Positions 2,361 through 6,722 of a stretch of 6,722 nt of DNA are shown here, in pieces. The stretch is from a bacterium ADurb.Bin374 (GTDB lineage: Bacteria > Riflebacteria > Ozemobacteria > Ozemobacterales > Ozemobacteraceae): assembly GCA_002068715.1 (NCBI GenBank), contig MWAR01000541.1, forward strand, positions 1 through 6,722, in the 5' to 3' direction. Each line of letters begins with the position of its first letter. Position 1 is the stretch's first letter. Made by a program: the position numbers and the translations under genes. The notes beneath the pieces were generated by a model. It ran no database searches, had not been told where the DNA came from, and worked only from the letters and a program-made list of their open reading frames with translations.

Positions 2361-3203
2361 TCAAACTGGCGGCGTCCGCCGAGGATCGGAAACCTTGCCG
2401 AGCCGCTTGATGATCTCGTTCGCGCTGGCCTCGACGGTCTTGTCCGTCACGTCCATCACCTCGAAGCCGCCTTTCACGAAGACCCTTCCGGCGAATTCGA
2501 GTTCCCCGACGATCTTGGCGGGATCGATGTAATCGGTTTTCTCGCGCATGCCGAGCAGGTCGCTCCGGTGTCTTCGAAACGAGAGCAGCCGGTCGTGTGA
2601 CAGGGTCAGTCCGATGACCCGCGAGGCCTCCTGCCGGAACAGCAGTTCCGGAATCTCCAGACCGGGCACGATCGGGAAGTTGGCGACTTTCCAACCGAGG
2701 ACGGAAAGATAGATGCTGAGAGGCGTTTTCCCGGTGCGCGAAACCCCGAGAAGGAGAAGATCCGCCTCGTGCCAGGTTTCCGGATTACGGCCGTCGTCAT
2801 GGGACATGGTGAACTCGATCGCTGCCACCCGCTCGAAGTATTCCTTGTGAAGCCGCCTGTACAGGCCCGGCTGTCCGAGCGGCGGCATGTCGAGTCTCTT
2901 AGCCAGGGTTTCGAGGAGCGGCCCGGTGATATCCAGGGCCGTGATGCCGCGCCTGTCGGCAATCTTGCGCATGTATGAACCGAGACCGGCGTCGACGAGG
3001 GAAAAGACGATGATGCCGCCAGACTCCGCCGCGAGGGCGACGGCGCGATCGAGCTGGGCGCTATCCCGGATGTTCCCGAGGGTGACGATTTCGACGCTGG
3101 CTTCCGGAAACTGCGCAAGAACGGTGTTCACGACCTGCTCGCCGCACGCGCCGACACCGCCCGACACGACGAAGATCCTGAATGGACTGGCTGACTTACT
3201 CAT
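2361..3203 (-). CDS. putative pyruvate, phosphate dikinase regulatory protein (PDRP-type, DUF299/Kinase-PPPase)
   Basis: A 280-residue cytoplasmic protein of the bifunctional serine/threonine kinase and Pi-dependent phosphorylase family. Known members switch PPDK or PEP synthase off and on by ADP-dependent phosphorylation and phosphate-dependent dephosphorylation. Visible signatures are YFERVAAIEFTMSHDDG (122-138), the P-loop GVSRTGKTPLSIYL (153-166), WKVANFPIVP (171-180), VIGLTLS (196-202) and EVMDVTDKTVEASANEI (248-264). GVSRTxKTPLS and the KVANxPxVP block fit the PDRP branch better than the PEP synthase branch (GVSRSGKTPT). The N-terminal motif, usually SDSxGET, reads SGGVGAC (14-20) and is divergent. 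The start overlaps the stop of the upstream cyclase gene by 4 bases (ATGA), so the two are probably co-translated; GGAG lies 11 bases upstream. The target enzyme is not in the window. Confidence 0.92.
   Translation of the reverse strand: MSKSASPFRIFVVSGGVGACGEQVVNTVLAQFPEASVEIVTLGNIRDSAQLDRAVALAAESGGIIVFSLVDAGLGSYMRKIADRRGITALDITGPLLETLAKRLDMPPLGQPGLYRRLHKEYFERVAAIEFTMSHDDGRNPETWHEADLLLLGVSRTGKTPLSIYLSVLGWKVANFPIVPGLEIPELLFRQEASRVIGLTLSHDRLLSFRRHRSDLLGMREKTDYIDPAKIVGELEFAGRVFVKGGFEVMDVTDKTVEASANEIIKRLGKVSDPRRTPPV
3200..3203 (-). other. ATGA stop/start overlap of the cyclase and PDRP-type genes
   Basis: The TGA stop of the cyclase (3202-3200) shares bases with the ATG of the PDRP-type gene (3203-3201). 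Overlaps of this kind usually mark translational coupling by terminating and re-initiating ribosomes, and they imply one mRNA. Confidence 0.85.
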
Positions 3204-6200
3204 GTCCGGTCACGCTCCGTTTCATAGGGTAATAGTCGATATATAACTATTGGTTCTGATTTTCCCTTCACCGAAACGCCGCCCAGGTCCGCGCAGGTTT
3301 CATCGGCCGGAAGAAGGGCGCGGCAGGAAGCGGAAAGCACGATCCGGGGCCGGCCGACGAGTTCGCCGGCGAAGGCCAGGAGGCGGGCGGCGGTGTTGAC
3401 CGTGTCGCCGATGACGGTGTGGTCGCGCCTCGGGCCCGAGCCGATGAAACCGCTGATGACCGGACCGGCCGAAATACCTACCGAGACGGGGAATGGGAGT
3501 CGCTGTCCGTCGGCGTTTCTCAGACGGCCCAGCGCTCTCAGCAGACGCGAGGCGTTTTCCGTTTGGGAGCCGCCGCGAAAGACGATCAGCAACTTTTCGC
3601 CGATGACCTTGTCGACATCACCGCCGGCGCCGATGAAGAGATCGCACAGAAGGGACGTCTGGGTCGTGAGTGCCTCGAACAGGGTGTCCGGCGGCATCGA
3701 GGCCATGAAACCCTGAAAATCCGGAACGCCGATCATCGCGATGACGGCGTCGATGCGCTCGCCGGCCGAGCCGGCCGTCGCTTCGCCCCCGGATGCTGCG
3801 CTCTCGGCGGATTTTCTGGCTTCGCTCGACATCATGGTCCTGATGAGTTCCCGCTCCTGCAGGCTTCGGGCCATCCGGTCGAACGAGCGCTGCAGGTCGC
3901 CGATCTCATCGGACCTGTAGATCCCGATCCGCGATTCGAACCTGCCCGCGGCCAACCCCTTCATGCCTGCTTCGAGACCCCGGATGGGGGCAAGCAGGTC
4001 TATGGCGGAACGCCAGGCCAGGAGGAGCGTCGCAAGAACTCCCGCGGCAAGCCAGAGGAACAATCCCTGCTGGACGTTGCGCGTGGCGGCGAGAAGCGGA
4101 AGTTCCGACGCGGCGGCGGCAAGGAACACCCGCGGGTTGTGGACGCCGGGCCGGGCCTCGACCAGGAAGGTGAACGAACCAATGCCGGTCCGGAAGCTCA
4201 TCGGGGTGTTCCCGGCCTGCGTCCATCGTGCGATCCCGGCGATCGGCGCGAACATGCCTCCGAGATCGGGCCTTATCATGGTCGCGCAGTTCTGCAGCGG
4301 ACAGCCGAAAAGCGCGAATCTCGACGGATTGTCCCGGATGACGTGCTGGAGGGCATCGAGCTCCATGCGCGCGGCGTTGTAGGTGATCGAGAAGAAGCCG
4401 CGGGGCCGGAGGGGATCCGGCAGCAGCACGTTCGAAATGCCGTAGACGCCGTTTCCCCCCGGGAGCAGGATGTGGACGAGGGTCGAGTAAAGGAACGGGT
4501 AGGATATATCGGAGATGAAGACCGACCTGAAGATCGAGAAGCCGATGTCGATCGCCATCTCTTGCTTGACGGCGTTTCCGAGGGGGGCTTCGACGGCTGA
4601 TCTGTCGGGGGTGTCGCCGATCGAGGTGAAGAGCAGACCGGCGATACTCGAGAGGTAGTGGCTGAACGAATCATGTTTCTGCTCTTCGGCGGAGCCTTCG
4701 CCGAGGCTGAACTTCCATCCTCCGGGCGCCGCAAGGAGAATTTGCTGAATATAGTAGGGAAGCGGCCCCGCGTGTGAAGCGCTCTTGATGGCACCGAGCA
4801 TTCTGGTGAGAGGGGCAGTGCCGGCGGAAGACGTTCTGCCCGCGGATACGCCTGGGGCTTTCGACTGGGCTGCGCCCTGATATTTCAGGATCGCTTTCAT
4901 GATGCCCGGATGGTTGCTCAGGCGCTCGATGTGGTCCCAGACGAAGGGATACCGGAGCTGATGGAGGCGGTCGATTTCATCGAGCCGCTGGACGAGGTCG
5001 AACCTCTCGTTCCGCATACGAATATGAATGTCTTCGGCCGAAAACCTCGCGGCTCCGGCGAGAATCGCCGCGAAGGGGAGGAGCGCCGCTGCGAGAAATC
5101 CCGTAAGAAGCTGGCTGAAGAGAGACTTCGCGAGGCCGCCCCCACGGAAGATCGTCAGATACCAGATGCCGGCACCGGCCAGATACAGGAGGGCCAACGC
5201 GGCCGCGACGGGGGGCTTGCGGGTGAAGTCCCCGGCGGACGACGGGAGGGGCGTGGCGAAGGTGAACGTCAGGTGCATACCGGAAACGATCGCTTCGTTT
5301 CTCGAGACGACGTATCTCTCGCCCCGGGTTTCGATGAGGCCCGAGGCCGACTCTGAAAGGCCGAGCGGGAATCGAGACGAAGAGAGGCTCGTGGAGGCTG
5401 AAGCATCGCCCGGTGCGGGCCGGCTGTCGATTCTGACTTCCATGCCGCCTGCGTTCAGGAGATTGAGGAGGGGGCGCAGCGAAAGATCGTCTCCGGAATG
5501 CCGGGGAAACATTGCCAGCAGATATCCGGCGACGGGCCGATTGCGGTTTCTTCGCGGGGAAAGAGGCGACGCCGAGGTTGCGATATCCACTGCGCGGATA
5601 TCGAACTGGGCCAGGATGGGACGCCAGTAAAACCACGTGTTCTCACCGTTGCGCGTGGCGGGAACGGCCTCGTTGAGCATGTTGGCCTCGAGGCGGCTCA
5701 AACCGACATTTTTGCCGACGAGAGCGGGAATCCCGGAAGCGACCTCCGGCAGATCCCGATGCGAAATCCCTTCGAAATTGCAGGCACCCCTTGCGAGAAG
5801 GTCGCGCAGAAAACTGGCAGAGGTTGTCCCGTCGGCGCCCATGCAGAAGGCGAGGGGCCAGGAGGCAGGCGGAGTCTCCGGCTGGCGGTACAGGACCGCG
5901 GCGAGCTTCGGGCTGAATTCAAGCGATGCCAGTTCCGACATCGCTTCTCTGCATGCTTTCAGGCGCATCTCTACGCCCTGATCCGGGGCGCTTCGCATGA
6001 AAGTGCCGGCCAGTCTGTCGCACACCAGGTCGATCCGATCTTCGAGCATGTGAATAACCGGATTCGTCACCCGCAGTTTCAGCATCGCCGTATCATGCGA
6101 CTCGAGCGCATCCCGCACCGTTCGATCGATCGTGCCGTTCAGCCGTGAATCGGTCGCAACGAACAGCGAGACGAAGGGAATGGCCAAAAACAGCAGACCC

Positions 6201-6722
6201 GGCAGAAACGCGAATGCCCATGTAAAGCGGATGTCGTCGTCGAAAGACGAGCGGCCCGTTCCCGCGGCATAGCCTTCCTCGTCGGCGGGTGCCGGCGTGA
6301 CGGGGTGTGCTTCGGGACCAGAACGAACGGGGATGGCCGGTGTATATATATCATAAGATATAGTATTACCGGAGGGGAGGATGGCAAGGGCCGACTGCTC
6401 GTGGCCGGGAATCGGCAGCGTGCGGGCGGCATATTCCCCGAGGAACGGCGCCAGTGCGGCGTCGACGGCGATCGGATGCTTCGGCACGAGCTTGGTCAAA
6501 GCCTCGAGTTCTGCGGCTCGTGCGATCGAAGGGCCGAGAAGGGCAAAGTCGAGTCGGGTTGAAGCATGGCCGATCGCTCCGCTGAGAAGACGGCCTCCCG
6601 CGATTCCGATTCCAGCCTGGTAGGTGAACAGCCCGGCTGCCTGGCGGTCGCGGTTGAGCGTTTTCATGGCGTCGAGCATCGCCTGGCCAGCTCGGATGGC
6701 GCGGATGACGGCGGGCGGGCCG
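3200..6722 (-). CDS. multi-domain membrane adenylate/guanylate cyclase-like sensor, N-terminus cut by window edge
   Basis: The frame is open to base 6722, so the true start lies outside; 1173 residues are visible. Numbering here is from the internal Met at 6679. Order: a partial class III cyclase-like domain (to about 105; GIGIAGGRLLSGAIG at 23-37); membrane segment 1 (about 154-175); an extracytoplasmic region (176-490, four Cys); segments 2 and 3 (491-511, 522-543); a second extracytoplasmic region (545-870, with C793 and C798); segment 4 (871-889); HAMP (about 889-942, with SDEIGDLQRSFDRMA); and a C-terminal cyclase domain (975-1150). The last has metal-site D987, K1024, D1086 and transition-state residues N1095 and R1099 in VIGDTVNTAARL. 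K and D indicate ATP as substrate. The second metal Asp is Glu (E1028). The first domain has A53 and E57 where N and R belong and is probably non-catalytic. The predicted role is production of cAMP in response to external signals. It is coupled to the PDRP-type gene by an ATGA overlap. Confidence 0.9.
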   Translation of the reverse strand, partial: GPPAVIRAIRAGQAMLDAMKTLNRDRQAAGLFTYQAGIGIAGGRLLSGAIGHASTRLDFALLGPSIARAAELEALTKLVPKHPIAVDAALAPFLGEYAARTLPIPGHEQSALAILPSGNTISYDIYTPAIPVRSGPEAHPVTPAPADEEGYAAGTGRSSFDDDIRFTWAFAFLPGLLFLAIPFVSLFVATDSRLNGTIDRTVRDALESHDTAMLKLRVTNPVIHMLEDRIDLVCDRLAGTFMRSAPDQGVEMRLKACREAMSELASLEFSPKLAAVLYRQPETPPASWPLAFCMGADGTTSASFLRDLLARGACNFEGISHRDLPEVASGIPALVGKNVGLSRLEANMLNEAVPATRNGENTWFYWRPILAQFDIRAVDIATSASPLSPRRNRNRPVAGYLLAMFPRHSGDDLSLRPLLNLLNAGGMEVRIDSRPAPGDASASTSLSSSRFPLGLSESASGLIETRGERYVVSRNEAIVSGMHLTFTFATPLPSSAGDFTRKPPVAAALALLYLAGAGIWYLTIFRGGGLAKSLFSQLLTGFLAAALLPFAAILAGAARFSAEDIHIRMRNERFDLVQRLDEIDRLHQLRYPFVWDHIERLSNHPGIMKAILKYQGAAQSKAPGVSAGRTSSAGTAPLTRMLGAIKSASHAGPLPYYIQQILLAAPGGWKFSLGEGSAEEQKHDSFSHYLSSIAGLLFTSIGDTPDRSAVEAPLGNAVKQEMAIDIGFSIFRSVFISDISYPFLYSTLVHILLPGGNGVYGISNVLLPDPLRPRGFFSITYNAARMELDALQHVIRDNPSRFALFGCPLQNCATMIRPDLGGMFAPIAGIARWTQAGNTPMSFRTGIGSFTFLVEARPGVHNPRVFLAAAASELPLLAATRNVQQGLFLWLAAGVLATLLLAWRSAIDLLAPIRGLEAGMKGLAAGRFESRIGIYRSDEIGDLQRSFDRMARSLQERELIRTMMSSEARKSAESAASGGEATAGSAGERIDAVIAMIGVPDFQGFMASMPPDTLFEALTTQTSLLCDLFIGAGGDVDKVIGEKLLIVFRGGSQTENASRLLRALGRLRNADGQRLPFPVSVGISAGPVISGFIGSGPRRDHTVIGDTVNTAARLLAFAGELVGRPRIVLSASCRALLPADETCADLGGVSVKGKSEPIVIYRLLPYETERDRT

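Follow-up and report, generated by a model that had tools for sequence, protein, structure and literature searches.

A putative asymmetric, receptor-type class III adenylyl cyclase of Riflebacteria with one predicted composite active site

The membrane adenylyl cyclases of mammals, AC1–AC9 (class IIIa), are single chains in which a membrane block and a cyclase domain occur twice in succession; as their roles are generally understood, the first domain keeps the metal-binding aspartates and the second the base-binding and transition-state residues. Rv1625c (Cya) is a class III membrane cyclase that needs a dimer to build its site. A recent review regards Rv1625c as a potential progenitor of the animal cyclases and traces the asymmetric membrane enzymes to a bacterial homodimer that underwent duplication and fusion in an early eukaryote (PMC9552081); the Rv1625c structure paper treats the bacterial ancestor as a protein obliged to dimerise (PMC9433096). 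We analyzed a stretch of 6,722 nucleotides (the window; contig MWAR01000541.1) from bacterium ADurb.Bin374 (Riflebacteria), in which an open reading frame (ORF) on the minus strand (3200..6721) encodes a membrane protein with cyclase-like domains at both ends. The asymmetry of these domains is real and conserved, and the protein is a bacterial counterpart of the asymmetric membrane adenylyl cyclases. From catalytic residues and a structure model, on which the catalytic claim is based, we infer that it is very probably an asymmetric (pseudo-heterodimeric) class III adenylyl cyclase, in which two fused receptor units would share one composite site.

Full-length relatives in the databases range from 1,982 to 2,048 residues, with identities from 77% (P0002, Candidatus Ozemobacteraceae) down to 22% (P0011), and on an Ozemobacteraceae contig (L001) the whole tandem gene is present as one ORF of 2,059 residues, with 77% identity to the window. 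Because the full-length relatives are longer (1,982–2,059 residues), the window ORF, whose 5′ end is open and truncated at the contig edge, is the C-terminal 57% of a tandem cyclase of approximately 2,050 residues. The ORF list gives 1173 visible residues, 1159 when counted from the first methionine. They contain the end of a first cyclase domain (domain A; 6377..6721, profile match at residues 5–100), a complete second receptor block, a HAMP domain and a second cyclase domain (domain B; 3224..3796), all on the minus strand. Domain B was identified by PF00211 (Guanylate_cyc; E 2e-8, 34.5 bits against a cut-off of 21.9), by sequence matches in the PDB and by its residue profile; in P0002, PF00211 matches in two stretches (62 bits). 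The two cyclase-like domains flanking a membrane part, as described in the original prediction, were thus confirmed by Pfam, the residue profile and the full-length relatives.

All cyclase domains were aligned to one profile, in a frame consistent with the alignment to OaPAC, and six positions were read (D1, D2, K, Spec, N, R), which we take to be the first and second metal-binding Asp, the adenine-binding Lys, the second base-recognition residue and the transition-state Asn and Arg. Domain B of the window reads G, E, K, T, N, R. The adenine-recognition Lys1024 (3608..3610), the second base-recognition residue Thr1088 (3416..3418, K/T type) and the transition-state residues Asn1095 and Arg1099 (3383..3397) are retained, and both metal positions are substituted according to the profile and the OaPAC alignment alike, by Gly984 (3728..3730) and Glu1028 (3596..3598). 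The substitution by Glu1028 had been noticed before, but the description of this domain as near-intact did not hold, as the first metal Asp is replaced as well. The visible end of domain A has Ala at the Spec position and, within the segment GPSIARAAELE (residues 49–59), Ala53 for Asn and Glu57 for Arg (6509..6523; all residue numbers from the first methionine), so that the earlier reading of a segment without transition-state residues was correct. Whether the first domain carries its metal Asp was a further point of that reading: both are present in domain A of P0002 and L001 according to the residue profile, and those of the window itself would lie past the contig end.

The same division of residues is found throughout the fused relatives. 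Exactly two domain matches were obtained for 49 ORFs, of which 46 cover all six sites; these comprise 8 proteins from the databases and 38 ORFs from 28 loci (1,440–2,677 residues, no near-copies). The three incomplete ones are the window ORF, P0001, which is its copy in the database, and a fragment in L021. Domain A has both metal Asp in 46/46. In just as many, domain B retains K, T, N and R and lacks the first metal Asp; the second is also lost in 26. The two domains are strictly complementary in 45 of the 46 ORFs, and in every one all six catalytic residues are available across A and B. This supports the idea, raised as conceivable in the original prediction, of a complementary metal and substrate domain pair within one chain. 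One more ORF (L049), whose second domain is reported as two matches and which stands outside the 46, follows the pattern (DDRSAA; GDK and TNR). Because the complementary pattern recurs in relatives down to approximately 20% identity, it does not reflect chance. Catalysis by domain B alone was rejected, given that its first metal Asp is consistently missing from the fused ORFs.

The loss of catalytic residues from each domain, and the visibly broken loci elsewhere (L017, L021, L034), could also be expected of a decaying, pseudogene-like tandem duplicate. The losses are complementary and conserved, however, and many paralogous pairs occur per genome. In addition, comparison of the window with L001 gave ratios of nonsynonymous to synonymous substitution rates (dN/dS) of 0.16 in the visible part of domain A, 0.18–0.21 in the sensor regions, 0.18 in HAMP and 0.33 in domain B, against 1.04 in a 45-residue linker. 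As dN/dS is low in the domains (0.16–0.33), these are maintained by selection, and on these ratios and the conserved complementarity we rejected the pseudogene reading, to which we attach a negligible probability.

The patterns of the scan that was used to find loci contained the Asp, and therefore whole genomes were censused. The genome of Candidatus Rifleibacterium amylolyticum (G003, the genome of locus L009) has 61 PF00211 domains: 23 canonical, 18 of type A, 18 of type B and 2 degenerate at both sets of residues. All 36 A and B domains lie in 18 adjacent A–B pairs without an orphan, 5 of them fused and 13 split over neighbouring genes on the same strand, which overlap by 1–38 bases if each gene is taken from its most upstream start codon. 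Shuffling the labels over all 61 domains gave a mean of 3.6 pairs and a maximum of 9 (10,000 draws), compared to the 18 observed, and shuffling within the 36 A and B domains reached 18 pairs once in 10,000. A second genome (G004, 43 domains) has 10 A–B pairs, of which 6 are fused and 4 split. The third (G001, 48 domains, on short contigs) has 5, plus one with its partner cut at a contig edge; other unpaired A or B domains in this genome are no more than 1.5 kb away from a contig end, save one ORF of 193 residues. Together, the three genomes hold 33 A–B pairs, in which A has D,D and B has K,T,N,R in 33/33; the K and T of B played no part in defining the classes. Of the 33 B domains, 31 have lost the first Asp, one is unaligned at this site and one retains it, with Glu at the second position. 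Where two domains are neighbours (in the same ORF or less than 300 bases apart), they form an A–B combination in 38 of 40 cases; the remaining two involve a domain truncated at a contig end and one domain reported as two pieces.

A predicted structure was obtained for a piece of the relative L012, as a single chain and without the membrane part of the first unit, at moderate confidence (predicted TM-score, pTM, 0.58). In this model A closes onto B, which is in line with the proposal that the two domains can meet, and the two superpose jointly on C1–C2 of human AC9 (362 residues, 2.5 Å), on human soluble adenylyl cyclase (sAC; approximately 3.1 Å), and also on AC5 and AC8. A and B are thus predicted to form a class III dimer within the chain. 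The A of one chain could instead pair with the B of another, as it must in the split-gene versions, and HAMP domains commonly dimerise; on the other hand, the single-chain model already brings A and B of the relative together and every A of G003 has its own adjacent B. We consider pairing between chains rather doubtful for the fused protein, and it is a variant of the proposed asymmetric cyclase, since the site would be identical and connectivity alone would differ.

Several observations weigh against the proposed asymmetric cyclase. The window itself is without the metal half of domain A, so that its two Asp are deduced from L001 and P0002, at 77% identity. One fused ORF (L022:12970-18984) retains Asn and Arg in domain A (DDKSNR), together with a B without the first Asp, and considered one at a time, Asn persists in 2 and Arg in 5 of the 46 A domains. 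The B domain of one split pair (G003 C2:229595-232645, in L096) is the one that keeps the first Asp, with Glu at the second position (DEKTNR). Three A-like domains outside the family are unpaired, two in G004 (C11:438127 and C14:68994) and one in G001 (C495:5475), and in another genome (G036, C119) a lone B is found. The model, of moderate pTM, covers one chain of a relative with the first membrane part absent, and whole-chain Foldseek alignments to AC5 and AC9 are poor (TM-score 0.27–0.40, approximately 30 Å), because the membrane parts differ. Finally, a solved bacterial tandem with a cyclase-like fold, the class III adenylyl cyclase-like protein of P. aeruginosa (PDB 6yii), known here by its PDB title, is titled only as ATP-binding, and because such a tandem exists the fold alone is no proof of catalysis. 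An A–B dimer that binds ATP in the composite site and signals without turnover would fit this precedent. A binding-only protein would not be expected to retain both metal Asp as well as the transition-state Asn and Arg, yet all six positions of the composite site are kept down to approximately 20% identity, in split and fused forms alike, and we regard a non-catalytic sensor as quite improbable.

Lys/Thr is a base-recognition pair of the adenylyl type, and Glu/Cys is that of guanylyl cyclases. Adenylyl specificity is therefore suggested by the K/T pair, and production of cyclic AMP (cAMP) from ATP is predicted from this pair and the composite site. Some class III cyclases are promiscuous or altered in specificity, and cyclic GMP or another product could be envisaged on that ground; with Lys and Thr present in domain B of all 46 fused ORFs and all 33 census pairs, we consider this improbable. 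In the asymmetric cyclase that we propose, A and B would dimerise, within a single chain in the fused form and across two chains where the genes are split. In the composite site, A would hold the metal ions and phosphates, and B the adenine and the transition state. The mirror site would be dead and could evolve into a regulatory pocket. Ligands of the sensor regions would shift the packing of the transmembrane helices and of the two HAMP domains, and the altered packing would change the A–B interface and thereby the cAMP output, which may be read by the many cyclic nucleotide (cNMP)-binding proteins of the genome. Such targets are plausible because five Riflebacteria genomes (4.3–7.0 Mb) each encode 43–64 cyclase and 17–20 cNMP-binding domains (PF00027); the PF00211 counts are 48, 64, 61, 43 and 43 for G001–G005, the genomes of L001, L011, L009, L028 and L026.

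The likeness to AC1–AC9 lies in the alternation of membrane blocks and cyclase domains along the chain, two of each, and in the division of residues between the domains. The Riflebacteria full-length relatives differ in having four transmembrane segments, two sensor regions and a HAMP domain per unit, in contrast to the six transmembrane segments of AC1–AC9; in a second base site occupied by Thr and not by Asp; in being bacterial; and in the existence of split-gene forms. A Lys/Asp pair is presumably the mark of class IIIa, and the Lys/Thr of the window and of all fused ORFs, together with the different membrane part, places the protein outside the animal membrane cyclase family. Human sAC (ADCY10) and bacterial sAC-like tandems (L229, L230, L231) also have two asymmetric cyclase domains per chain. 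These are soluble and carry AAA and TPR domains, whereas a receptor block with transmembrane segments is present here, and Pfam families of AAA and TPR were not found in the window, P0002, P0006, P0008 or P0011; membership of the ADCY10-like soluble cyclases was rejected on both grounds. Human sAC has a bicarbonate site, and since domain A keeps the Lys in 19/33 and the Arg in 3/33 census pairs, a site of this type is not generally retained.

Unlike Rv1625c, in which identical chains form two equal sites, the tandem would build one site from two specialised domains. Canonical single-unit relatives occur as well (L028, L031 and L038 of Riflebacteria, and P0013; 949–1007 residues), with one cyclase domain near the end and, in P0013, the same four-segment membrane layout. 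They differ from the tandem in holding all six catalytic residues in one domain, and their homodimers should therefore have two sites. Two trees of the cyclase domains were built with the six sites removed and the soluble tandems left out. In the larger (165 rows), 3 changes are needed for the A label and 3 for the B label, with 3 and 2 forced by starred branches; this is partly due to the different labels of the L022 exception and of two partial rows. In the smaller (115 rows), A forms one side of a branch, with a support of only 76, and B needs 3 changes; starred branches force 1. The trees agree with one ancient divergence of A and B in the phylum, without proving one.

Complementary pairs were also found beyond these genomes. 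G035 and G036, two further genomes from the same phylum group (contigs titled UBP17 and Cloacimonadota), were read at candidate pairs and have 5 and 4 complementary split pairs, respectively, with the B gene first, plus one lone B; several of their B domains are too diverged around the first Asp to align. The search of candidate pairs gave no receptor-type pair in G031 (titled Wallbacteria) or G040 (titled Calditrichaeota). The soluble tandems L229 and L230 (G031) and L231 (G040) are long chains with an N-terminal A–B tandem followed by AAA and TPR domains (DDKLRA/xQKTNR, DDLVDR/xxxSNR and DDNCKK/xDCTNR for A/B), and the first domain of L231 matches ADCY10 (E 7e-14). Treponema bryantii (G041) has two different adjacent pairs of complementary cyclase genes. 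One (L197, C11:503817-505727 and 505729-507672; approximately 640 amino acids each) combines DDKVDI with xGQTNR, a B that is also without Lys; the other (L198, C14:269701-270912 and 270905-272110; approximately 400 amino acids) is of the K/D type and combines QEKDNR with DDKDEK. A counterpart of the small K/D-type pair, DDKDDK adjoining SNKDNR, is found at L210 (G088 C73; G088 is one of 60 family genomes searched, and two loci were read). The soluble tandems and the Treponema pairs thus indicate that asymmetric cyclases are confined neither to the Riflebacteria-type family nor to eukaryotes. The asymmetric plan itself is already known, and its soluble tandem kind is present in other bacteria.

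Taking these results together, we lean towards a reading in which a bacterial phylum, apart from animals, evolved and multiplied an asymmetric, one-site membrane adenylyl cyclase, with 18 complementary pairs in one genome, as overlapping gene pairs or, once or more, as fused receptors of approximately 2,000 residues with four extracytoplasmic sensor regions. Each pair would combine the inputs of two receptors in a single cAMP output, with the dead second site perhaps acting as a regulatory pocket like the forskolin and bicarbonate sites of animal enzymes. The Treponema pairs and soluble sAC-like tandems would then suggest a recurrent, overlooked bacterial design. Among the matches listed in searches of the open-access literature, we found no description of a bacterial receptor-type asymmetric cyclase, as a fusion or as split pairs, nor any paper about such cyclases in Riflebacteria, about 6yii or about the Treponema pairs. 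With the same membrane plan now in bacteria, and canonical units, split pairs and fused chains coexisting in one genome, the order of specialisation and fusion and the use of the vacated second site become directly testable, in asymmetric cyclases whose membrane parts appear to resemble known sensor folds. A caution also follows: a bacterial cyclase domain that looks degenerate may, when another cyclase gene adjoins it, be half of an enzyme and not a pseudo-enzyme.

The receptor block of the window was delimited by a hydropathy scan, which gave four transmembrane segments at residues 164–182 (6176..6232; a long helix in the predicted model), 507–525 (5147..5203), 538–556 (5054..5110) and 885–903 (4013..4069). 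Between them lie two extracytoplasmic regions of approximately 325 residues each, the first at 5204..6175 and the second, membrane-proximal, at 4070..5053, and the HAMP domain follows at 3854..3997 (PF00672; E 1.6e-10, 41.6 bits against a cut-off of 25). The four-helix block with two sensors of the original prediction is therefore present, but the Riflebacteria full-length relatives, which consist of two tandem units of four transmembrane segments, two sensor regions, HAMP and a cyclase domain, show it to be only the second of two such blocks. The sensor block was also predicted alone, because cyclases filled the Foldseek list of the model that contained them. The second, membrane-proximal sensor region of the unit may be dCache-like, and Pfam gave no Cache family at E ≤ 1 in the window or at E ≤ 5 in P0002, P0006, P0008 and P0011. 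A stand-alone B unit is found in P0010 (1056 amino acids, on a contig of 10,363 bases), the sensor block of which matches that of the fused second half (E 7e-52).

Directly downstream of the cyclase gene, and overlapping its stop by 4 bases, lies a gene for a PpsR-type kinase/pyrophosphorylase (2361..3203, minus strand; PF03618, E 1.3e-78). A HAD-family phosphatase is encoded on the opposite strand (1432-2076), followed on the minus strand by two EutN/CcmL-type microcompartment proteins (928-1194 and 618-968) and a partial microcompartment protein cut by the contig end (3-602; weak match to TIGR02536, eut_hyp). L001 shares these neighbours in synteny, with the PpsR gene in the same 4-base overlap, the HAD gene in the same place, and microcompartment genes. 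The overlap hints at a connection with the phosphoenolpyruvate (PEP)/pyruvate node in the subfamily of the window and L001; coupling of PpsR and cyclase as a general rule was rejected, as only these two have it among the scanned loci. Rfam gave no match in the window at gathering scores. Elsewhere, head-to-tail arrays of two or three fused cyclase genes are frequent (L026, L019, L009, L011, L007, L013 and L022).
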